Assembly (NCBI GenBank): GCA_002839335.1
Contig: PGXU01000003.1
Coordinates: forward strand, 1-64,000
Reading direction: 5' to 3'
DNA: 64,000 bases
Source of the DNA: Spirochaetae bacterium HGW-Spirochaetae-4
Lineage (GTDB): Bacteria; Spirochaetota; Spirochaetia; Sphaerochaetales; Sphaerochaetaceae
The notes beneath the pieces were generated by a model. It ran no database searches. It was not told where the DNA came from and saw only the letters and a program-made list of their open reading frames with translations. This document shows, piece by piece, positions 2,048 through 14,980 of the stretch. Position 1 is the stretch's first letter. Each line of letters begins with the position of its first letter. The translations under genes were made by a program, and so were the position numbers.

Positions 2048-5000
2048 CTACCCGATCCTCTCCTCCTCGTCCGGAACCTCGGTGTCGGCACTGAGGATCC
2101 TATCCATTTCATCAAGTACACCCTGGGTGTATGTCCCGAAGTTGAACATGGGCCGCAAGCGTCTGAACAGCGGTCGCACGAAGTGTCGAAGTTGACTCTG
2201 GTCCTTCTCCATGGTCGTTTTGCTTTGCAGCATCAGGACCGTGACCGCCGATGGCGAATAATACGTACCCACCTCTTCGAAGCCGAACTTCTTGTAGAGC
2301 TTTATTGTCTTCACATCGTCGGCAAACACATCGATAATCATGTTCTCGACACCCTTGCTGCGCGCCAGTAGGAACACAAGCACGATCAGACCGATCGACA
2401 CCGCGGTATTGCGCATTTCCGGCAACACAGCCAACCGGATGATCTCCGAACAATTGCGCGACTGCAACACCGACTCGACATCGAAATACCGCGAAATCGG
2501 CAGTGGCCAGAAATTGTCCGACGTCATCAACGAAACGGTCCCCACCGGGTGCAACCCCTTGAACGCGAGGATATGGGTCGCCTTCTCGTCGACAGCCCTA
2601 TGGATCGTCTCCTCCAGATAGCCCTTCTCGCCGACCAGCACCTTCCGCTGGATAAAGAACACATCGTTTATGCCGGCTTGGTCGGAGACCAGGGCGAAGC
2701 TGATCGCATCACGCCCCTCGTCATCCATCGGGAATATCGTGGTGAATTCGGAACCGACACGTTCCTCGCTCTTCACCCGTATGCGTCCGCCCATTTTCTC
2801 CACGATACTGTAGCAGTTGGAAAGCCCGAGACCCGTTCCGGTTCCCGGTGCCTTCGTTGTGAAGAATGGGGTGAATATCTGGTTGAGGTTCTCTTCGGCG
2901 ATACCGCATCCCGTATCTCCCACCTTGATATAGACGAAACCATTGACCTCCATACACGTGAGGGTGAGGGTCCCCTTGCCTTCCATGGCCTGGATCGCAT
3001 TGACAATCAAGTTCAGGAACAGTTGCTGCAACTCGCCCTCGTTCGCCTCGATGAACGGCAGGGCGTGGTAGTTGCGCTTGACCACGATATTCTGCGAATC
3101 GACTCCACGGGTTGCCAAGCGGAGCGAGAACTCGAGGACCCTTATTATCTCGACCTGCTGGATTTCCTTGATCGGCTCCTTGCGCGAATAGATCGAGAGC
3201 TCCTTGATCACGTCGGCTGCGGTCTTGGAGTACGAAAGGATATCCTCCAGGTACTCATGGTGTTGGCTGCCCTCATCGACTTCGGTGAGCATGATCTCCG
3301 CAGTACCCGAGATCCCCGCCAAGGGATTGTTCAGCTCATGGGCTATTCCCGCGGCCAATGTGCCGATACCTGCCATCTTCTCGGTCCTGACCAACTCCTC
3401 CTGCAGGTTCTTCTGCTCGGTGATATCGTTGATGATCTCGATGAAGACGCTCTTCGAATTCTCCGGAACCTTCACATTGTGGAACTGGAACGAGTATACC
3501 CTCTCGGACACATCCGCCTCGGTCTCCTGCAGGACACCGGAGTGGAGGCAATCGAGGGCCTGACAGAAGGGACACGGCCGGATACGGTGGAAGAACGCCC
3601 GATAACACTTGTTCCCGATCAACTCCTTCTTGTTGTTGCCGAAGAATGTCACTGCGGCGGTATTCGCCTCCTGGATAGTGAAATCGATATCGATCAGACA
3701 AACAGGCGATGCGATTCCATTGAATATCGCCTCCAGCTTGTTCTTGCTCATGGTAAGCTCGTTGCCCTGGATCCGCAGCTGCTCGAACGAAAGGGCATTC
3801 TCCAACGAAAGGGAGCTCTGCGCCGCAAGGATTTCCAATGCCTCGACCTCTATCGAAGTGATAAGCGATTTGTTGTAATCGTATCCAATCAGGATATACC
3901 CGGCGATCTGTTTCCTGAATATGAGGGGAATCAGCACATCGGCCAGTGGAAGCTGTTCGCTCACCTGCAGCCTCGGCTCGTCCGGGTGGACGTTGATGAT
4001 CGACGAACTGTTCTCACGACTCAACCGTTGCAGCTTGTCCTCAACTTCCTTGGGGAAGGAAAACACCAGCTCGTCACCGGTCTCGAGTTCTGTCGGGCAC
4101 TTGCTGTTCGAGATCATGAGGAACTTGTCACCATCGCCTATCCGCTTGACCGCGAACACGACCCACTCCGTCTTCAAGCCCGTGCTCAGGTTCTTGACCA
4201 CCTCGTCCCCGAGTTCCTGCAGGTTGACAATGGTCGTCAGCTTTTTGCTGAGATTCTTGATGGTGGTCTGGTACGGGTGCCGTTTCGGGATTATGACCGT
4301 ATCGACGATGAACGTAAGGAAATTCCTGATCGGATGGATAATGATAACCGTCACGATACCGAGTATGATCGCCAGTTGGGAAATATCGCCCGGAGCGAAA
4401 TCGGTGTTGTACAGCTGGATGATCTTGATGATCAGGTAGTAGGAAACGGAAGCGATGATCGCAAGGATCGTAGAGTAGATGATATTCAATCCTACCCTAG
4501 AATAGTTGATCAGCTTGAACTTGTAGATCGTGTAGAACAACAGCAACGCGTTTATGGTCGCGGAGAATATATCGACCGGGTACTTGCCCACCGCGGGAAA
4601 GATATTCATGAAAATTCCGATAAGCATGATGACCACACCGATGAGTGGAAGGAACAGGTTCTTGTGGTACTTCTGCAGCGGCTTGATCTTTGCGCTGAAC
4701 ATCAGGATCCCAAGGGTGAGTAGCAGGTAGATATAGCTTATGGAGTAGGCGAATGCCGAACCTGGGGCAAGTTGGTAGTAGAAGACACCTTCGGGGGTGA
4801 AACCGACATCCAACACGATGCTTCCCGAGAAGTTCAGGAACATGAGGGGAATGATCAACAGGTAGCTGGCGGCAATGAATATGCGAATGGAGCGTTTGTG
4901 CAGATCAAGGATATCGACTATGAAGTTGCTCAAAGCGAAAGGAGCGGAAAGGAGACCGATCAGCATGATCTTGTTCCAGAACAACGGAGTCATGAAACCA

Positions 5001-5173
5001 CTGTTGAGGTGCATCATCATGGATCCGAAACTCCATATGGAGAAGAAGATCATATAGAGTTGGAACGACCAGTAGAACCTGTCCTTCTTATATTGCAGGA
5101 ATCCAAAAATTACAAAGAACAGATAGAGCAGACATGCCACTGCCGGAATGATGGTAGAGATATCAATGATCAT
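2048..5173 (-). CDS. Hybrid sensor histidine kinase: N-terminal 7TM region, GAF, PAS, HisKA, HATPase, C-terminal GNAT (LuxI/FeeM-like) domain
   Basis: MIIDISTIIPAVACLLYLFF... multiple TM; HisKA AAGIAHELNNPLAG; HATPase N/G1/F/G2 boxes (LNLIVNAIQAM, DTGCGI, FFTTKAPGTGTGLGL); C-terminus GYLEETIHRAVDEKATHILAFKGLHPVGTVSL...IIRLAVLPEMRN...YKKFGFEEVG. Confidence 0.85.
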   Translation of the reverse strand: MIIDISTIIPAVACLLYLFFVIFGFLQYKKDRFYWSFQLYMIFFSIWSFGSMMMHLNSGFMTPLFWNKIMLIGLLSAPFALSNFIVDILDLHKRSIRIFIAASYLLIIPLMFLNFSGSIVLDVGFTPEGVFYYQLAPGSAFAYSISYIYLLLTLGILMFSAKIKPLQKYHKNLFLPLIGVVIMLIGIFMNIFPAVGKYPVDIFSATINALLLFYTIYKFKLINYSRVGLNIIYSTILAIIASVSYYLIIKIIQLYNTDFAPGDISQLAIILGIVTVIIIHPIRNFLTFIVDTVIIPKRHPYQTTIKNLSKKLTTIVNLQELGDEVVKNLSTGLKTEWVVFAVKRIGDGDKFLMISNSKCPTELETGDELVFSFPKEVEDKLQRLSRENSSSIINVHPDEPRLQVSEQLPLADVLIPLIFRKQIAGYILIGYDYNKSLITSIEVEALEILAAQSSLSLENALSFEQLRIQGNELTMSKNKLEAIFNGIASPVCLIDIDFTIQEANTAAVTFFGNNKKELIGNKCYRAFFHRIRPCPFCQALDCLHSGVLQETEADVSERVYSFQFHNVKVPENSKSVFIEIINDITEQKNLQEELVRTEKMAGIGTLAAGIAHELNNPLAGISGTAEIMLTEVDEGSQHHEYLEDILSYSKTAADVIKELSIYSRKEPIKEIQQVEIIRVLEFSLRLATRGVDSQNIVVKRNYHALPFIEANEGELQQLFLNLIVNAIQAMEGKGTLTLTCMEVNGFVYIKVGDTGCGIAEENLNQIFTPFFTTKAPGTGTGLGLSNCYSIVEKMGGRIRVKSEERVGSEFTTIFPMDDEGRDAISFALVSDQAGINDVFFIQRKVLVGEKGYLEETIHRAVDEKATHILAFKGLHPVGTVSLMTSDNFWPLPISRYFDVESVLQSRNCSEIIRLAVLPEMRNTAVSIGLIVLVFLLARSKGVENMIIDVFADDVKTIKLYKKFGFEEVGTYYSPSAVTVLMLQSKTTMEKDQSQLRHFVRPLFRRLRPMFNFGTYTQGVLDEMDRILSADTEVPDEEERIG

Positions 5174-5231
5174 GCGAATTCCTTTATGTACTTCCAAATG
5201 TATGCAACTTGTACTAGTATACAGACAAGTT

Positions 5232-5768
5232 ATGGGATTAATCAAACTATTTATTATCGGAGCCATAGGATATTTGCTCTCAGGACTCTACGATGTGGCA
5301 GTGTTGTACGACAAATATCTGCTTAAGAAGGGATTGTACCTCGGGTTTTTCCTTACGGCGGTTCCCTATCCCATCATGTTCCTTACGATGCGTTCCCCCT
5401 TCGGCACAGGGTTGCTCCTCCTCCTATTGCTGCTGATATTTGCATTCGGGGCACTGCTTGCCTATTCGGTGTTGATCGAGATTCCCCGCTCCGCCAATAC
5501 GGCGGGTGCACTGTATCGTGGTGGAACCTACAGTTTTTCTAGACATCCGGGATTTATTTGGTATACTGTTGTCAACATCCTCATAGCTGTCTATTTCTGG
5601 GATATTGGGATTGCATTGGTATGCGCCGGATTCGTTGTGTGCAATCTTGTCTTGATTGCCATCGAGGACTCGGTCCTGTTCCCAAGAATGTTTCCCGACT
5701 ATGGGGAGTATCGGAAAGAGGCACCGTTTTTTCTATCGCTGCAGAACGTAATCCATCGGAGAAGGTAG
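5232..5768 (+). CDS. Isoprenylcysteine carboxyl methyltransferase-like / phospholipid methyltransferase-like membrane protein
   Basis: MGLIKLFIIGAIGYLL..., several TM helices, GGTYSFSRHPGFIWYTVVNILIA and C-terminal E(D)SVLFPRMFPDYGEYRKEAPFF typical of the ICMT/PEMT family. Confidence 0.65.
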   Translation: MGLIKLFIIGAIGYLLSGLYDVAVLYDKYLLKKGLYLGFFLTAVPYPIMFLTMRSPFGTGLLLLLLLLIFAFGALLAYSVLIEIPRSANTAGALYRGGTYSFSRHPGFIWYTVVNILIAVYFWDIGIALVCAGFVVCNLVLIAIEDSVLFPRMFPDYGEYRKEAPFFLSLQNVIHRRR

Positions 5769-5769
5769 C

Positions 5770-6795
5770 ATGACAAAGCATATTGTGACAACAGACGATG
5801 ATCCTGCAATCCGGAAGGTCCTGCAGATAATGTTGAAGAAAGAGGGCTACCAAGTCACCCAATGCAAGGATGGGCATGAATTGTCGACCGTGCTGAAGCA
5901 AGATTCCGCAAGTGTCGACCTGGTGCTCCTCGATATAAAGATGCCGGGATTGTCCGGATTCGAGATGCTCGATATCATGCAGCGCAACTATCCCCGTATA
6001 CCGATCGTCATGTTGACCGCATTCAACGACCTCGATACCGGCATGAAGGCAATCCGTTCGGGTGCCGCCGACTACCTGGCCAAGCCTGTCCGGCGCGAAT
6101 CGCTCGTCTCCTGTGTGGAACGGGTCATCTCGAAGTCCCAGATGCAACAGGAAGCGGTGGCGGAGAAGTCCAACTACCTTACCCGCCATGTCGAACTCGA
6201 GACCAAATTGAAAGCCGCGCTCCTTTCGCTCAAGAACACCACCCGCGCGACCCTCGAAGCCTTCTCGGAAACCATCGAACAGAAGGATGCCTATACGAAA
6301 GGCCATTGCAGCCGTGTCCGCACCATTTCCGTGGCAATCGGCAATGCCCTCAAATTGTCGCACGACAATATCCAGATCTTGGAAGGAGGCTCACTCCTGC
6401 ACGATATCGGCAAAATCGGTATCGCGGAGGAAATCCTGAACAAGACTTCGTCGTTGACAAAGGAAGAATACGAGATCATCAAGATGCATCCGGTGGCTGG
6501 AGAACGCATCATCACACATATCGAGCTGTTCCAACCGTACCGACCGATTATTCGGAGCCATCACGAACGTATCGACGGAAGGGGATATCCCGACGGACTC
6601 AAGGGCGACGAAATTCCCCTGGATGTACGTATCGTATCCCTCGCCGATGCCTTCGACGCCATGACAAGCAGCCGTGCCTATCGTGCGGCGTTGCCGACTG
6701 AAATCGCCGTGGAAGAGATCAAACTCTGCTCCGGCACCCAATTCGACCCGGAATTGGTCAATGTTTTCCTCGACAAAGAGATCTTCCTCCTGTAA
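5770..6795 (+). CDS. Response regulator with HD-GYP c-di-GMP phosphodiesterase domain (RpfG-like)
   Basis: REC: TDDDPAIRKVLQ...DLVLLDIKMPGLSG; HD-GYP: HCSRV...LLHDIGKIGI...HHERIDGRGYPDGLKG. Confidence 0.92.
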   Translation: MTKHIVTTDDDPAIRKVLQIMLKKEGYQVTQCKDGHELSTVLKQDSASVDLVLLDIKMPGLSGFEMLDIMQRNYPRIPIVMLTAFNDLDTGMKAIRSGAADYLAKPVRRESLVSCVERVISKSQMQQEAVAEKSNYLTRHVELETKLKAALLSLKNTTRATLEAFSETIEQKDAYTKGHCSRVRTISVAIGNALKLSHDNIQILEGGSLLHDIGKIGIAEEILNKTSSLTKEEYEIIKMHPVAGERIITHIELFQPYRPIIRSHHERIDGRGYPDGLKGDEIPLDVRIVSLADAFDAMTSSRAYRAALPTEIAVEEIKLCSGTQFDPELVNVFLDKEIFLL

Positions 6796-6838: not shown

Positions 6839-9800
6839 ATGGGCAAAAAACGGAAGAAGAAAAGAACGATCCCAGGAAAATCCCACATACGCCTCTCGCT
6901 CTTGTTGAGCATCGGCTTCATCCTGGTATTGCTCTCCCCCTGGCTTATCTGGCTCTCCCGGCCGACCCTGCCCCTATCGGTACTCGTCTACAACAAGACC
7001 GTGCCTGACACCAGCGCCAAGGCACACGTCGGCCTGGGATGGCTATTGCACCACTTCAAGCTCCACGACATATCCGGAGACCCCTTCTCGGCCACAACAA
7101 CCTACCGGGGATACCACCCCGGGGAATCGGAAGAAAACCGGATTGTTCCACTCGGTCCCGTTCCCGAGGACATGGACCTGGTCTATATCGCCGACACCTA
7201 CGGAATTTACCGCAACGGCGAAGGGTTTTCCCGTAGCGATCACGAGGAAGGCACCCGCAACCTCATATATGGTGGGATGGACCAGACCGATGTCGATACC
7301 CTGCGCGAGTTCCTCAACCGCGACAATCCCAACACGGTAGTCGCTGAATACAACACCTTCGCGACCCCGACACCCGACTATATACAATCGCAACTCTATG
7401 AAATGTTCAGGGCCACATGGACCGGTTGGTCGGGACAGTTCGTAGCCGACCTGTCCACCTCTGGCGATACCCCCTCGTGGATCTACGGCATATACGAGCA
7501 ACAGAGTGGCGAAGCGTGGAACTACACAGGTAGTGGAATCGTTATCTACAACACGAACGACGAGATACTGGTACTGGTCGTGGGCGAGGACCTGGGACCG
7601 AACGTGAACCAATTTGTCTACACCCCTGCTGGGGAACGGACGTTGCGCCTCTCGGGATCCACCTACTACACCCACCTGTTCGACATTGTCGAACCACTGG
7701 CCGGTGCAGAAGTGCTTGGTGAATACCAATTGGATACAACACCCCAAGGAGCGCGGAAGCTCAAGGATTTCGGTTTGGAAACCACGTTTCCCGCCATCAT
7801 CCGAGGAACAACAGCCTCCCACAGCACCTATTATCTCGCGGGCAATTGGGCATACAGTCCCACACCCTTGAAATTCTCCTTCCTCGCCGGAGTGCCGAAC
7901 CTCATGCGACGCACAGTCCAGAATTCACTGGATAGTGAAAACAATTTCTATTGGCACATCTACCTGCCCCTCATGCAGTCGATATTCGACGAAGCCTACA
8001 TGCGCAAGAGCTTTCCTCCGGGCAAGGCCACAGCTACGACCACCAGTATCGGACAAACCACCATGGTCTCGCGAACGCACGGCAACCTGTTGCAGGTGTG
8101 GCAGGACGAACAATGGAAAGACCTGTTCATCCACGGCATCAACCTGGGAATAGCCATGCCCGGGAAATGGTTCACCGACTTTCCCAAGGACAAAGCCCTC
8201 TACTACCGCTGGTTGACCCAGATCGGGGAACTGGGTGCCAATACGCTACGCATCTACACCTTGCTCGACCCGGAGTTCTACCATGCCTTCCTCCTCTACA
8301 ACCAACTGCACCCCGAGCAACCGATGTGGCTCATGCAGGAAATCTGGCCTGAGGAGGAACCGCACGGCAACGATTACCTCGACATCGACTACCAGGAGGA
8401 ATACCAAAAGGAAATCGTCCACGTGATCGATGCGGTCCATGGAAACGCCACCATCGCCGAGCGACGCGGTAGGGCTTGGGGAACCTACACCAGCGATGTC
8501 TCGGCGTACATTGTCGGGTACCTGGTAGGCAGGGAGCTTGAGCCGCATGAAGTCGAGGACACCGACTTGCTGAACGAGGGGTACCTGTTCAACGGAGACT
8601 ACATCCGCACAACAGCTGCGGCCAGTCCAACCGAGGCCTGGTTGGCCGAAAGCACCGACTATGTGCTCGGCTACGAGGAATCGGCATACGGATGGCAACA
8701 CCCTGTCGCCATCGTCAACTGGCCGACCTTGGATCCGATCGAGCACCCCTCGGAACGCAACGAGAAGGGAGAAAAGGTCAATGAGTCGAACGACCGGACC
8801 ACTGTCGACATCAACAACCTGCTTCCCGGCCCACAATTGAAGGCGGGCCTGTTCGGCGCATACCACATATACCCGAACTACCCCGATTTCATGAACAACG
8901 ACCCCCTCTACGATACCTACGAGGACGAATTCGGCCGTTTCCGCTATGGAGGATACCTCAAGGAATTCATGGAACACCACACGGCCTACCCTGCGGTCAT
9001 CGCGGAATTCGGCCTTGCGACCGGTATGGGCAACGCCCACTTCAGCCCCGACGGCTACCATCATGGCTCCATGACCGAACTCCAGCAGGGAGAGGGAATC
9101 ATACGCATGTTCGAAGCCATGCGGACCGAAGGCTATGCCGGGGGAATCATCTTCGAATGGATGGACGAATGGACCAAGAAGACTTGGACAACCGAACCCT
9201 ACATGGTCCCCTACGACCGCCATATCCTGTGGCACAACGCCGTCGATCCCGAACAGAATTACGGTATCCTGGCATATGAGGCGATCAAACCCAAACGGGC
9301 AGCCGTCGCATCATCGGGAGCAGGAGCGATAACACACGTGGAATTGCGCCTCGACGCCTCGTTCCTCCACATCGATATGGGATTTACCGGCGCCTTGGAT
9401 TTTTCGAAGGAGCGACTCCTGATCGGGCTGGACACCTTCGGACGGGAACTCGGTGAGCTGCTGTACGACAAGAATCTCACCATTTCCGCCCCCTCCGGCA
9501 TGGAGTATCTCGTGGTCATCGATGGAAAGGAGACCTCCCGATTGCTCGCCATTCCTCCCGCAAACGGCTCCCAATACAAGTTCAGCACATACGAGGGATT
9601 GGAGATGCGCGGACTCTTCGAATCCATGCGCAAACTGACCAACAAGGCACGGGCATTGCAGGACGGCACCCCGATACCAGCCCGATACGAAGACGCAAGC
9701 AAGCTTCACCATGGCAAATTGATAGGGTCCACCAACCACTGGAAGATCGAGGGGAACACCCTGTCCCTACGCATTCCCTGGACGCGGATCAACGTATCCG

Positions 9801-10078
9801 ACCCCTCGTCCGGAACCGTACTCGACGACAAGCGGATATTCTATACCGATCCGTTGCGGGATGTGCTGCACACCGCAACCTCGGATGGAATCGCAGTATC
9901 GGTAGCATTGGTCCAGAACAAGACCGACCGGGTATTGGGAACCTTCCCGGCACCCGCTATGGGGGTGGAGCCGGTGGTGCTGGCCTGGCAACCCTGGAAC
10001 CAACCGACCTTCCGGGAGCGGTTGAAGGAAAGCTACACGCTGCTCCAGGACTATTTCATCACGTTCAAGGAGAATTGA
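6839..10078 (+). CDS. Large membrane-anchored protein with TIM-barrel glycoside-hydrolase-like domain
   Basis: Start MGKKRKKKRTIPGKSHIRLSLLLSIGFILVLLSPWLIWL (TM anchor); GH-like LGANTLRIYTLLDPEFYHAF, AVIAEFGLATGMG (EFG nucleophile-like). Confidence 0.7.
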   Translation: MGKKRKKKRTIPGKSHIRLSLLLSIGFILVLLSPWLIWLSRPTLPLSVLVYNKTVPDTSAKAHVGLGWLLHHFKLHDISGDPFSATTTYRGYHPGESEENRIVPLGPVPEDMDLVYIADTYGIYRNGEGFSRSDHEEGTRNLIYGGMDQTDVDTLREFLNRDNPNTVVAEYNTFATPTPDYIQSQLYEMFRATWTGWSGQFVADLSTSGDTPSWIYGIYEQQSGEAWNYTGSGIVIYNTNDEILVLVVGEDLGPNVNQFVYTPAGERTLRLSGSTYYTHLFDIVEPLAGAEVLGEYQLDTTPQGARKLKDFGLETTFPAIIRGTTASHSTYYLAGNWAYSPTPLKFSFLAGVPNLMRRTVQNSLDSENNFYWHIYLPLMQSIFDEAYMRKSFPPGKATATTTSIGQTTMVSRTHGNLLQVWQDEQWKDLFIHGINLGIAMPGKWFTDFPKDKALYYRWLTQIGELGANTLRIYTLLDPEFYHAFLLYNQLHPEQPMWLMQEIWPEEEPHGNDYLDIDYQEEYQKEIVHVIDAVHGNATIAERRGRAWGTYTSDVSAYIVGYLVGRELEPHEVEDTDLLNEGYLFNGDYIRTTAAASPTEAWLAESTDYVLGYEESAYGWQHPVAIVNWPTLDPIEHPSERNEKGEKVNESNDRTTVDINNLLPGPQLKAGLFGAYHIYPNYPDFMNNDPLYDTYEDEFGRFRYGGYLKEFMEHHTAYPAVIAEFGLATGMGNAHFSPDGYHHGSMTELQQGEGIIRMFEAMRTEGYAGGIIFEWMDEWTKKTWTTEPYMVPYDRHILWHNAVDPEQNYGILAYEAIKPKRAAVASSGAGAITHVELRLDASFLHIDMGFTGALDFSKERLLIGLDTFGRELGELLYDKNLTISAPSGMEYLVVIDGKETSRLLAIPPANGSQYKFSTYEGLEMRGLFESMRKLTNKARALQDGTPIPARYEDASKLHHGKLIGSTNHWKIEGNTLSLRIPWTRINVSDPSSGTVLDDKRIFYTDPLRDVLHTATSDGIAVSVALVQNKTDRVLGTFPAPAMGVEPVVLAWQPWNQPTFRERLKESYTLLQDYFITFKEN

Positions 10079-10081
10079 CCT

Positions 10082-12112
10082 ATGGACCTATCGAAACCGA
10101 TTCCCGTGACCGAAGGCCTCTGGTGGGTAGGTTCGGGAGGAACACACAACAACCTCCAATGCAACCCCTATCTGTTGATCCAAGGTGGAAGCGCAATCCT
10201 GTTCGACCCCGGTTCGGTCCTGGATTTCGACACGGTAGCCGAAAAAGTCTCATCCCTGGTTCCGATATCGGAGCTGGAAGCCATAGTCTGCAGCCACCAG
10301 GACCCGGACCTCTGCTCGGCGTTGCCCCTGTTCGAGAAAGCCGGGTTTACCGGTCCGATCTGTTGCCATAAGCGGGCCGCCGCCATCATCACCTACTATG
10401 GCGTACAAAATCCCTTCTACCCGATCGACCTGCACGAATACGCCTACACCCTGAAGGACGGCACAGCAATCACCTTCATCTTCGCCCCCTACCTCCACTT
10501 CCCCGGAGCGATCATGAGCTACCTGCCCATACAGAAGGTCCTTGTCTCGGGCGACCTGTTCGGATCGGTCACCTCGCAGTGGCACCTGTTCGCCGAGAGC
10601 GGATACGAGGAAGGCATGAAAGCCTTCCATGAAGCCTACATGCCATCGCACGATATCCTCAAACCCGTCATGGACCAGCTCGAACACTACGACATCATGA
10701 TAATATGCCCTCAACACGGATCGATTATCAAAACAGAGATACCCTACCATATCCAACTGTTGCGCGATCTTCCCTGCGGAATATTCCTCGAGCCGGTACG
10801 GAAGAACCTTCTGGACGCAGGTGGACACCTCGCCTTGTGCAACCAGATCGTCAAACGGTACGTAGCCATGTTCGGCGCAAAGGAAGTCCGCGAAGCCCTG
10901 GTAAAATCACCCTTCGTCTTCAACGCGAAAAACAAGGCAATCCAAAGCACCAAACTGGCCGAACAGGAGATATGGGATGCCTTTTTCGACCTGATCCATG
11001 AGCGCAAGGGCATGGGGTGGATAACCGTGGTCGCTCCCGCGGTCGAACTCATGAGCAAGGAGTACTCGATCGCACTGCCCGACGTATTCCGTACCCTGGT
11101 GTTCGATGCGATCAGGAACCTCGATACCCGGGATTCCAAGATGCAGGAGTTGGAATCGGCCCGGTTGAACCTCGAGGAGAAGTTGAAGCATATGGAAGAG
11201 AGCCTCTACAAGGATACGGTTACCGGATTGTACAACGAGGAGTTCCACCGACTGTTCGTACACGAAGCCATGGCCGCGATCGCCGATGATGGCAAAGCCC
11301 TCACCTTCCTCATGATAAGCATCGACAACCTTTCTGCGATCAATCTCGATTTCGGCAGCGCCGAAGGAAACGCGACCTTGCGGAACCTCGCGATGGTCAT
11401 CAAGCGACACATCGAACCGACCAGCCACCTCTTCCGTCTCTCCGGTGGCGTCTTCGGTATCCATTGCATGGACCTGGACAAGGACGAAGTGATCCGGCGG
11501 GCAGAAACCATGCGCACCACCATTGCGGAATCGGATATCTTCATCGTCCCCATAACCGTATCCATCGGCATGTTCAACACCACCGAAATTCCCCAATCGG
11601 TCATGGGAGACCTTGAACAGATGGTCGAACTGACCATGCAAACCGCCCGTTATCGCTTGAAGTTGGCCCAGAAGCAAGGTGGAGGCATGCTAGTCCATGC
11701 TTCGAACACCGCGAATGTGGGCAATACCATATTCACCATCCTCCTAATCGACGAACCGGGTCTGGGCCGCGACATTATCCGACGGGCATTGGAGCAGAAC
11801 CACTACCGTGTTGTTGTCGCGGACAATGGTCTCGAGGGGCGGCGATTCGTGGAGGAGGAGCGTCCCGATATCATAATCAGCGAGCTGATGATACCGAAGG
11901 TGAGTGCCTTGACCCTACGCAAGGAGCTGCTCGCCAAACCATCGACCAGGAAAATCCCCTTTCTCCTCATGTCCTCGATCAAGAATGAAAGCACCATCGG
12001 CCGGGCATTGGAAGTCAACATCTCCCACTTCTTCTGGCGCCCGGTCATGTTGGTGGAGCTGCTTGGAGTCGTCAATCTGATCGCAAACAGACTCCAGATC
12101 CAAGGAAATTGA
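10082..12112 (+). CDS. Metallo-beta-lactamase/ODP-like domain + degenerate GGDEF + receiver domain protein
   Basis: N-term NPYLLIQGGSAILFDPGS...CSHQDPDLC...HFPGAI...VSGDLFGS...CPQHGSI; GGDEF-like VTGLYNEEFHR...RLSGGVFGI; REC-like TILLIDEPGLGRDIIRRALE...PDIIISELMIPKVSA. Confidence 0.8.
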   Translation: MDLSKPIPVTEGLWWVGSGGTHNNLQCNPYLLIQGGSAILFDPGSVLDFDTVAEKVSSLVPISELEAIVCSHQDPDLCSALPLFEKAGFTGPICCHKRAAAIITYYGVQNPFYPIDLHEYAYTLKDGTAITFIFAPYLHFPGAIMSYLPIQKVLVSGDLFGSVTSQWHLFAESGYEEGMKAFHEAYMPSHDILKPVMDQLEHYDIMIICPQHGSIIKTEIPYHIQLLRDLPCGIFLEPVRKNLLDAGGHLALCNQIVKRYVAMFGAKEVREALVKSPFVFNAKNKAIQSTKLAEQEIWDAFFDLIHERKGMGWITVVAPAVELMSKEYSIALPDVFRTLVFDAIRNLDTRDSKMQELESARLNLEEKLKHMEESLYKDTVTGLYNEEFHRLFVHEAMAAIADDGKALTFLMISIDNLSAINLDFGSAEGNATLRNLAMVIKRHIEPTSHLFRLSGGVFGIHCMDLDKDEVIRRAETMRTTIAESDIFIVPITVSIGMFNTTEIPQSVMGDLEQMVELTMQTARYRLKLAQKQGGGMLVHASNTANVGNTIFTILLIDEPGLGRDIIRRALEQNHYRVVVADNGLEGRRFVEEERPDIIISELMIPKVSALTLRKELLAKPSTRKIPFLLMSSIKNESTIGRALEVNISHFFWRPVMLVELLGVVNLIANRLQIQGN

Positions 12113-12115
12113 CCT

Positions 12116-14980
12116 ATGGGAACCACTTTCGCCATCATCCTGACGTTGACAGTCCTTGCGCTGGACCTCATCCTCTTTCTCTTGACCTTCATCTTGAAGG
12201 CCTTTCGGAAGATCCGTAGCCGCCGGCAACAAAAACATGACCGGTATATCGAAGAACAGCTGCTCGCCGGTGAGATAGATGACGAACGGATAGAGCCCGA
12301 CGACCTGTTTTCCCTCTACAAGCGGCTGCAGGAAGCGGTTTCCATACCGATGGAACGTCAGGAATGCATAGCACGGATGCTCTTGGACAGCTACCTACCG
12401 AAGCGGTACATGAAGCAACTCCAATCCCGGTTCCGGTTGAAAAGGATCGAAGCCGCCGCAAACCTCAGATACCTGCAGCGGGAGGACATACAGCAAGCCC
12501 TCCTGGCCGCCTTGCGCACCGAGCGTGATACGACGGTCGCCCTGTACATCGGCCAGGCACTGGCGATCCAAAAGGATACCAGGGCGATAATCCCCTTGAT
12601 CTCCCATATCAGAAGGAGCAGCCCGTGGATGGCCGGACGGTTGCGCTCTATCCTGTACACCTACGAGGAGAAGCTCCTTCCGTATCTGCTGCGAAGGGTG
12701 AAGAACACTAGGCGTTACATGCAGCAGATCATCTGCGGCTTCGCCATCGCGCATCCGTCGGAACAGTTGCGGGACTATCTGGTCGAACTTGGCCAATCGG
12801 AACGGACAGGAACCAGACGACTTGCCCTCAAGGCCCTCCGCAAGCATTTTCCCGAAGAACTGATCCGGGAGCCGTTCACCTCGAGTAAGAAGAACGATAT
12901 CCTGGTGGCCGTCATCCACGCGATTTCCATCCTCCCGGGCAAGCATCGCATAGCTACCATCCTCACATTCTCCCGCCGCAAGGCGTTGCATGAGCATATC
13001 GTACAAAACCTCTCGGACATGACCTACCGGGAACCGGCGGTGCTCGGCGATATACTGGCACACTTCAAGCACACCAAATCGAGCAGGAACAAGGAACTGT
13101 TGGCAAAAGTACTCGATCGGCGCATCGAGTATTACCTCGTGCAGATCGCAGGACCCCTGCACGACCAGATAGTCGAACTGATCAGGGAACTGGTTCGGGT
13201 GAAACAGACTAGCGGCATCATATTCTTCCTCAACCGCAACCAGGAACCGTCGATCGAAAAAGCCATCGTCCAAACCCTACGTCCATTGATGAAGAAGAAC
13301 CAGACCTTGCATATGCAAATCGTGCAATACCTCGACGCACGGCTGGTCAAGGAATTCAAGATCAGGTTCGCCAAGAAATATCGCGACACACCGGCACCCC
13401 ACGCCGAACCACCCCAGCGCCTCCGTCTGGCACTTACCCTTATCGGCATACTCCTGCTGTTTCCCCTGGTCATCCTTGCCAGCGAGTTCACCACCCTGGT
13501 CAGCCTCTCATGGCAAGAAATCGGGCGGCTGTATGTGGTGCGGTTCAACTACCTGCTGGTCTACTACTCGGTCACCATCAACCTCATCTACCTACTCGTC
13601 CTCACCATTTCGGTGCGTGGAGCCCAGGTCCAGGCGCGCCTATGGGACTGCAAGGACACACGGCTCCTCTATACCGACCAATTGCTGCCCGCGGTATCGA
13701 TCATAGCCCCGGCCTACAATGAGGCAGGCAATATCATCGAGAGCGTCAATTCCCTGCTCAACCAACGCTACCCCGACTTCGAGCTGATCGTCGTCAACGA
13801 CGGTTCCAAGGACGAGACCCTGAACACATTGATCAAATACTTCAACCTGGAGAAACGGGACCGGCTTATTCCGAGAAGACTCAACACCCGACCGATCCGC
13901 GGTATCTATACCAACAAGAATATCCCCAACCTCATCATCGTCGACAAGGTGAACGGAGGAAAAGCCGATTCGCTCAACCTCGGGTTGAACGTCGCCAGCA
14001 AGGAATTCTTCTGCGGGATCGATGCCGACTCCCTGCTGGAACCGGAAGCACTGCTCAAAGCAGTATCGGCGATGATCGATTCACACGAGGAGACGATAGC
14101 CACCGGGGGGAACATCTGCCCGGTCAACGGCTGCACCGTCGAACTCGGCTCGCTGGATGCGGTCTCCTTGCCGAAAAACTTCCTCGCCCGCCTGCAATCG
14201 CTTGAATATATGCGGGCGTTCATGTCGGGAAGAGTCGGTTGGTCGCATATGAACCTGTTGCTGATCATCAGCGGGGCATTCGGCGTATTCAACCGGGAGC
14301 GCACCATACAGACCGGCGGATACCTGACAAAAAGCGGCAAATACCGCAAGGACACCGTCGGCGAGGATATGGAACTGGTCGTACGGCTCTCGCGGTACAT
14401 GCGCGAGCTGAAAAAACCGTATCGGGTGAAATATGCATTCAACGCGAACTGCTGGACCGAAGTACCCGAATCATGGAAGACACTGCACCGCCAACGGGAC
14501 CGGTGGCATCGTGGCCTTGTCGATATACTGCTGTTCCACAGTGCCATGATCGCCAATCCCCGCTACGGGCGATTGGGCGTGGTCGGCATGTCCTACTACT
14601 TCATCTTCGAGTTGGTCGGGCCATTCATCGAAGCCCAGGGGCTGTTGCTGGTGGTCCTCTCGATCTTCCTGGGGATCATCAACCTGCCCATTGCCCTATT
14701 GCTGTTCACAGCGACCATCCTCTTGGGTATCCTGGTCAGCATATCGTCGGTCCTGGTGAACGAACTCGACCATGAGATGTATGCTACCGACGATGTCCTG
14801 CGTCTGCTCGGCATGGCTATCCTGGAGAATTTCGGTATACGCCAGATCATCAGCCTCTGGCGGGTCGGCGGCTTCTTCAGTGCCATGCGGAAGAACAGGG
14901 GATGGGGAACCCAGGTGCGCAAGGGCTTCGGTTCCCCCAAGCCGGTCAAGGCTTCCAGCGCTCATATGAAAAAGCATTGA
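12116..14980 (+). CDS. Processive family-2 glycosyltransferase (cellulose/PNAG/hyaluronan synthase type) with N-terminal HEAT-like repeat region
   Basis: GT2 motifs IVVNDGSKDET, NGGKADSLNLGL...GIDADS, VGEDMELVVRL, HRQRDRWHRG (QxxRW); flanking TM helices; about 400 aa alpha-repeat-like N-terminus. Confidence 0.85.
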   Translation: MGTTFAIILTLTVLALDLILFLLTFILKAFRKIRSRRQQKHDRYIEEQLLAGEIDDERIEPDDLFSLYKRLQEAVSIPMERQECIARMLLDSYLPKRYMKQLQSRFRLKRIEAAANLRYLQREDIQQALLAALRTERDTTVALYIGQALAIQKDTRAIIPLISHIRRSSPWMAGRLRSILYTYEEKLLPYLLRRVKNTRRYMQQIICGFAIAHPSEQLRDYLVELGQSERTGTRRLALKALRKHFPEELIREPFTSSKKNDILVAVIHAISILPGKHRIATILTFSRRKALHEHIVQNLSDMTYREPAVLGDILAHFKHTKSSRNKELLAKVLDRRIEYYLVQIAGPLHDQIVELIRELVRVKQTSGIIFFLNRNQEPSIEKAIVQTLRPLMKKNQTLHMQIVQYLDARLVKEFKIRFAKKYRDTPAPHAEPPQRLRLALTLIGILLLFPLVILASEFTTLVSLSWQEIGRLYVVRFNYLLVYYSVTINLIYLLVLTISVRGAQVQARLWDCKDTRLLYTDQLLPAVSIIAPAYNEAGNIIESVNSLLNQRYPDFELIVVNDGSKDETLNTLIKYFNLEKRDRLIPRRLNTRPIRGIYTNKNIPNLIIVDKVNGGKADSLNLGLNVASKEFFCGIDADSLLEPEALLKAVSAMIDSHEETIATGGNICPVNGCTVELGSLDAVSLPKNFLARLQSLEYMRAFMSGRVGWSHMNLLLIISGAFGVFNRERTIQTGGYLTKSGKYRKDTVGEDMELVVRLSRYMRELKKPYRVKYAFNANCWTEVPESWKTLHRQRDRWHRGLVDILLFHSAMIANPRYGRLGVVGMSYYFIFELVGPFIEAQGLLLVVLSIFLGIINLPIALLLFTATILLGILVSISSVLVNELDHEMYATDDVLRLLGMAILENFGIRQIISLWRVGGFFSAMRKNRGWGTQVRKGFGSPKPVKASSAHMKKH

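Follow-up and report, generated by a model that had tools for sequence, protein, structure and literature searches.

A histidine kinase carrying a FeeM-type acyltransferase domain in a candidate signalling module of spirochaetes

Can one bacterial polypeptide sense a signal and also make an acylated one? The question is raised by a gene in the 64,000-nucleotide stretch analysed here (the window; positions 1 to 64,000 of contig PGXU01000003.1, assembly GCA_002839335.1, from Spirochaetae bacterium HGW-Spirochaetae-4), which an earlier note had described as a sensor histidine kinase fused to a LuxI/FeeM-like GNAT acyltransferase domain. The 1,041-residue protein occupies 2048..5173 on the minus strand in a single uninterrupted frame without internal stops, as that note had it. 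It starts at the ATG at 5173, where homologues also begin (a second in-frame ATG lies at 5266), and stops at 2048.

We found the fusion in 66 non-redundant spirochaete loci, at identities of 39–97%. Of 101 relatives, 27 have the domain with a high score, for the most part within a single frame of about 1,030–1,080 residues; full-length identity runs from 97% down to 39%. Across 393 genomes of the phylum the fusion was present in 14, three of them outside the class. When 84,980 species genomes were scanned with two short peptide patterns, which may pass over distant relatives elsewhere, 61 loci were recovered, all labelled spirochaete except one 'bacterium' record and one 'Solidesulfovibrio' metagenome-assembled genome. 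Spread to the Desulfovibrionales was considered for the 'Solidesulfovibrio' contig (L111) and rejected, because that contig is a chimera, 99.5% identical to a spirochaete locus (L110) from position 7326 on. The junction of the chimeric stretch (L111:7326-10878) falls at the conserved histidine-kinase core.

Could the fusion itself be an artefact of sequencing, assembly or gene calling? One contig is proven chimeric, and in two single-contig genomes the seven-transmembrane (7TM) region is broken by a stop or a frameshift, but the same one-frame fusion recurs in 62 near-full-length proteins, which form our conservation alignment and come from many independent assemblies. We therefore rejected an artefactual or frameshift origin, to which we attach almost no credence, and the single polypeptide proposed earlier stood where a sequencing error or two separate genes might have been found. 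The kinase–FeeM fusion is real and ancient. The two interrupted loci belong to Sphaerochaetaceae genomes; their kinases are broken in the 7TM/linker region by an in-frame TAG (L036:6849-9998) or a frameshift (L043:8990-12150, approximate coordinates), with the remainder open. These interruptions may be sequencing errors, pseudogenes or natural variation.

The order 7TM-GAF-PAS-HisKA-HATPase given in the earlier note was recovered by Pfam apart from the GAF region (all domains on the minus strand). Residues 12–223 (4505..5140) form a HisKA_7TM membrane sensor, the putative receptor (PF16927, 40.4 bits against a cut-off of 28.6), with 36 of its 212 positions invariant in a class-level alignment. 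The GAF-like region, residues 318–470 (3764..4222), falls short of the threshold in the window protein (GAF_3, E = 0.025), but GAF_2/GAF_3 do match it in two homologues (L050 and L056). It is followed by a PAS domain at residues 479–588 (3410..3739; PAS_9 above cut-off), whose cysteine cluster proved partly constant: C523, C534 and C537 are invariant in the 62 proteins, but C542 varies. The HisKA dimerisation and phospho-acceptor domain (residues 605–666, 3176..3361; Pfam) keeps H612 in all 62, and the HATPase_c catalytic domain (residues 712–817, 2723..3040; 87.3 bits) has conserved N and G boxes. Some five residues past the HATPase match, in the place that a receiver takes in hybrid kinases, begins the FeeM-type GNAT domain with two C-terminal helices (residues 822–1028, 2090..2710).

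What kind of GNAT is this? The FeeM profile (PF21926, cut-off 27 bits) matched residues 861–970 with 33.4 bits in the whole protein and 37 bits in the isolated domain, and was matched by all 26 domain homologues (best E = 2.3e-15); no other protein of the genome matches it. The part of the C-terminal stretch beyond residue 970, also read as GNAT in the earlier note, appears in the model as the two C-terminal helices. Profile–profile comparison of the domain with seven FeeM-profile proteins gave E = 8e-8. An AlphaFold model of the domain (predicted local distance difference test 88.7, predicted template-modelling score 0.85) matched GNAT structures, FeeM (2g0b; E = 1.8e-8, query-based template-modelling score (TMq) 0.62) and the acyl-homoserine lactone synthase BjaI (5w8g; E = 2.7e-8, TMq 0.63) being the second and third proteins by E-value. 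The canonical acetyl-CoA motif A (Q/RxxGxG/A) occurs in none of the 62 homologues; R[NG][TS]x[VIA][SP] is the usual sequence there, and RNSxAA that of two FeeM-profile proteins, L120 and L129, the only ones in which we saw the departure of FeeM-type proteins from this motif. Together, the Pfam and profile matches, the predicted fold and the missing motif A bear out the FeeM-type assignment; the fold alone is also compatible with a generic GNAT.

In the class-level alignment, 43 of 172 positions of the GNAT domain never vary, which puts its conservation at about the level of the HATPase domain. All 62 proteins share Q842-R843-K844, E849, G851-Y852, D862, G878-T879, E910, R913, L914-A915, R921, D948, F950, Y960 and G964-F965. 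A sequence search with the FeeM-like protein L120, aimed at an alignment to 2g0b, matched polyamine acetyltransferases alone, so catalytic residues were not mapped directly onto FeeM. The LuxI side of the earlier description fared less well, the Autoind_synth profile (PF00765) giving no match at E ≤ 1. FeeM-like sequences also occur in other settings. A single protein in each of L120 (1-2112, minus strand) and L129 (1-1998, minus strand) unites a FeeM, a cyclic-nucleotide-binding and a Methyltransf_11 domain; here too an acyl-amine synthase is coupled to a sensor domain and a methyltransferase. A divergent gene of 511-523 residues lies beside it. At L150:6474-7832 (plus strand), a protein with multiple transmembrane segments has a FeeM-like C-terminal region and lies, judged by eye, in a cluster with FabG/FabZ-like, carrier-protein-like and ketosynthase-like genes.

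The fusion kinase had been pictured as a self-contained device, yet the conserved unit is usually three genes. Clustering all neighbours of the 66 loci placed the kinase in 66, an ICMT-like methyltransferase in 56 and a response regulator with HD-GYP output (RR-HD-GYP) in 54, the next family reaching 11. Direct search placed the ICMT-like gene divergent from the kinase, most often at a distance of about 60 bp, in 57 of 60 loci, and the RR-HD-GYP gene follows it in 57 of 60 (counted from neighbour tables over the loci with enough flank, leaving out six contig-edge loci and the chimera). A strong ICMT-like orthologue and the fusion kinase occur in exactly the same 27 of the 101 genomes, although much of this co-occurrence reflects shared ancestry and adjacency, so that the hypergeometric value computed for it does not measure significance. 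All 17 genomes with an ICMT orthologue among the 393 of the phylum also have either the fusion kinase or a GH3 gene beside a 7TM kinase. No crotonase-type RpfF synthase was found among the conserved neighbours, the search being limited to the kinase neighbourhood. This near-constant linkage with methyltransferase and RR-HD-GYP, found in many environmental spirochaetes, suggests a compact cell-to-cell or membrane signalling circuit.

In the window, the divergent promoter region between kinase and methyltransferase spans 58 bp (5174..5231), a length that stays at 56–61 bp in most family-level homologues. Beyond a promoter-like TTTGTATTAGTATA, no conserved operator was evident in it. The conserved TTTGTATTAGTATA lies close to the methyltransferase start, a placement that suggests a leaderless or nearly leaderless methyltransferase transcript.

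The methyltransferase gene (5232..5768, plus strand) encodes an ICMT-like integral membrane protein of 178 residues, recognised by motifs, by NCBIfam and Pfam matches in homologues and by its adjacency to the kinase. The METHYLTRANSFERASE has a fully or almost fully invariant motif, G(T/S)Y...RHP and D...F(P)..F..Y..Y; RHPGF is present, and R104, H105, P106, D146, F150 and F154 are invariant. Among 53 homologues, NCBIfam isopcys_mtase matched 26 (best 3.7e-7), Pfam ICMT 30 at E ≤ 0.05 and PEMT 21, and nine weakly matched LmtA, the lipid A methyltransferase that belongs to the ICMT family. The sole related sequence in the PDB is that of Ma-ICMT (4a2n, E = 0.0049), with the RHP and the C-terminal acidic/aromatic motif aligned. 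Methyl transfer is a likely, not a certain, activity.

The RR-HD-GYP gene (5770..6795, plus strand; Pfam Response_reg and HD_5) encodes a c-di-GMP (cyclic di-GMP) phosphodiesterase-type output. Receiver D55 is kept in 58 of 58 homologues and most HD, HHE and GYP residues (HHExxDGxGYP) in 55–56 of the 58. It is the probable cognate partner of the fusion kinase.

Is the FeeM domain ever replaced beside the methyltransferase? In four genomes of the phylum (G103, G137, G160 and G349) the ICMT-like orthologue is present without the fusion kinase and forms an operon with GH3 and a 7TM kinase (L155:6881-12930, L156:6333-12406, L157:7067-12355 and L158:1900-7226). The methyltransferase stop and the GH3 start overlap in L157 and L158. 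The kinases of these loci have a 7TM-type N terminus related to that of the window kinase, and two are hybrids with a receiver. In a fifth genome (G145), GH3 spans two frames and lies beside a 7TM kinase, and the fusion kinase and an ICMT-like gene are found elsewhere, so that the methyltransferase heads the operon in four of the five genomes; GH3 of this type occurs in no further genome among the 393. GH3, GH3_M and GH3_C all score above cut-off in L155 and L156, and the GH3 protein weakly matched plant GH3-1 (4b2g, E = 2.4e-4). GH3 enzymes form acyl-amino acid amides. Judged from these genes, FeeM is replaced in other spirochaetes by an unrelated GH3 acyl-acid amido synthetase of the same predicted chemistry. 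A bacterial precedent is the GH3-like OlsH, described as N-acylating ornithine with fatty acids (PMC12493201), a step for which the unrelated OlsB serves elsewhere. In our view, nothing speaks more strongly for an acyl-amino acid product with a part in signalling than this alternation of two unrelated enzymes, alike in predicted chemistry, next to the same methyltransferase and 7TM kinases.

The anatomy of the fusion, its deep conservation, the tight linkage, the co-occurrence and the GH3 replacement are observed. We propose a two-component signalling unit whose sensor kinase carries its own acyl-signal synthase, a proposal for which we see about as much to say as against. The FeeM domain, by family and fold, would act at the membrane's inner face and attach a fatty acyl group, probably from acyl-ACP (acyl carrier protein), to an amino acid or a related compound through its amine. 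ICMT methylates the carboxyl of prenyl-cysteine, and the ICMT-like enzyme would probably methylate the free carboxyl of the lipidated amino acid in the same way. The acyl-amino acid or its methyl ester, from the same or neighbouring cells, would be sensed by the conserved 7TM domain, and the kinase, as its domains predict, would phosphorylate the adjacent RR-HD-GYP and so alter c-di-GMP turnover. Since the synthase sits where hybrid kinases have their receiver, synthesis may, more speculatively, be gated by the state of the kinase. Taken to its full extent, the proposal describes a new class of quorum sensing or membrane signalling in spirochaetes, in which one polypeptide makes and senses an N-acyl amino acid methyl ester and may gate synthesis by its own phosphorylation, with a parallel version in which a GH3 enzyme, a relative of those that conjugate plant hormones, stands in for FeeM; we advance this fuller form tentatively, and think it somewhat improbable in all its parts.

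Several observations weigh against the signalling proposal. By E-value the first fold match of the domain is SACOL1063, a CoA-bound generic GNAT (1.5e-8, TMq 0.57). The earlier note had taken a generic GNAT as best structural match to count against an acyl-synthase domain, and the outcome was a near tie: SACOL1063 leads by a narrow margin in E-value, but aligns with a smaller share of the query (its TMq is 0.57, that of FeeM 0.62–0.64). LuxI has a conserved arginine in its GxxR strand; the corresponding position, which we take to be 881 from the alignment to FeeM-type proteins, is Ser in 53, Thr in eight and Ile in one of the 62 homologues. No acyl carrier protein gene, of the kind that FeeL represents, is among the conserved neighbours of the 66 loci, although the FeeM family does not strictly require one. 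The window methyltransferase stays below the Pfam ICMT cut-off (17.4 against 24 bits), and its model, which resembles the ICMT/steroid-reductase superfamily, had no PDB match at E ≤ 0.001 (steroid 5-alpha-reductase 2 came first at 0.013 and Ma-ICMT reached 0.22). The fusion kinase is kept without RR-HD-GYP in three loci (L049, L089 and L097) and without an adjacent ICMT-like gene in three others (L100, L107 and L116); neither partner is therefore obligatory, and either can be lost while the kinase stays. The product, ligand and secretion of the module are themselves predictions.

Some of these points would fit an ordinary GNAT whose target for acetylation or acylation is a protein, such as the kinase or its response regulator, or else a small molecule with no part in signalling. 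The rank of SACOL1063 and an Acetyltransf_1 (generic GNAT) score above cut-off agree with it, but FeeM is the best profile, motif A is absent throughout, and the constant ICMT-like pairing and the GH3 replacement would be left aside; we find it quite improbable. The loss of the LuxI-type arginine and the position directly behind the HATPase domain, a usual place for a regulatory domain, could instead point to a GNAT without catalytic activity, which would bind acyl-ACP or acyl-CoA and so inform the kinase of the supply of fatty acids. Dozens of residues, E910 and R913 among them, have nevertheless stayed invariant at identities of 39–97%, and replacement by a GH3 enzyme is hard to square with a mere sensor, which makes this a poor prospect too. 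An active N-acyltransferase whose product is a membrane amino lipid or surfactant, not a signal, is also unlikely, though less easily set aside: the kinase would sense the state of the membrane and the fused enzyme would adjust its lipids. The kinship of ICMT with LmtA suits this, as does the fact that, in bacteria, the nearest known parallels among GH3 enzymes and other N-acyltransferases make ornithine lipid precursors (PMC12493201). The conserved neighbours, however, include no O-acyltransferase (OlsA, OlsI) or other lipid gene, the permanent linkage of a 7TM kinase and a c-di-GMP regulator better suits signalling, and the 7TM domain is well conserved, as expected with one fixed ligand.

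Further genes follow RR-HD-GYP in the window. A genus-conserved protein of 1,079 residues (6839-10075, plus strand), with no Pfam match at E ≤ 0.05, separates it from a gene for an ODP (diiron metallo-beta-lactamase type)-GGDEF-receiver protein close downstream (10082-12112, plus strand), after which comes a GT2 glycosyltransferase with HEAT repeats (12116-14980). The presence of the ODP-GGDEF-receiver and GT2 genes near RR-HD-GYP in the window's genus suggests exopolysaccharide as one output of the module.

If the signalling proposal is true, spirochaetes gain an acyl-based communication system with a signal of predicted chemical class. A candidate substrate would then be at hand for the ICMT-like gene, and a candidate signalling role for bacterial GH3 enzymes. 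With synthase and receptor in one molecule, the coupling of signal making to sensing would be directly testable, and cultured strains among the loci, Sphaerochaeta halotolerans and Rectinema subterraneum, make such testing practical. In the open-access literature we came across no description of a histidine kinase joined to an acyl-signal synthase, this fusion included.

How does the module compare with known systems? With FeeM (PF21926, 2g0b) the domain has in common its profile, fold, order of conserved residues and likely acyl-amine chemistry. FeeM is a stand-alone protein with a dedicated carrier protein, whereas its spirochaete counterpart forms the C-terminal part of a histidine kinase, with no carrier gene among the conserved neighbours. 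The LuxI-type acyl-homoserine lactone synthases, through BjaI, are alike in predicted fold, but differ in the Autoind_synth profile, which is not matched, in the GxxR arginine, here Ser/Thr, and in the kinase fusion. In the RpfF-RpfC-RpfG system of the diffusible signal factor (DSF), the synthase is a crotonase-family enzyme and RpfC is a hybrid kinase. Rpf is the precedent for a fatty-acyl signal with synthase, membrane sensor kinase and RR-HD-GYP (PMC5391125, PMC3749722), and RpfC has been reported to bind the fatty acid DSF directly (PMC5391125); the putative spirochaete synthase differs in being GNAT-type and covalently fused, and a methyltransferase is added. OlsH is likened as a GH3 precedent for N-acylation otherwise done by the unrelated OlsB, but it makes a membrane lipid precursor, and the passages on OlsH in PMC12493201 hold no link to a kinase. 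In PhcB-PhcS-PhcR, which uses 3-hydroxymyristic or 3-hydroxypalmitic acid methyl ester (3-OH MAME/PAME), a methyltransferase finishes a fatty acyl methyl-ester signal and is paired with a sensor histidine kinase (PMC8578825). PhcB and the ICMT-like protein are likened by role alone, and Phc has neither an amide-forming synthase nor an RR-HD-GYP. By analogy, then, the predicted module works like Rpf and Phc, yet is a member of neither.

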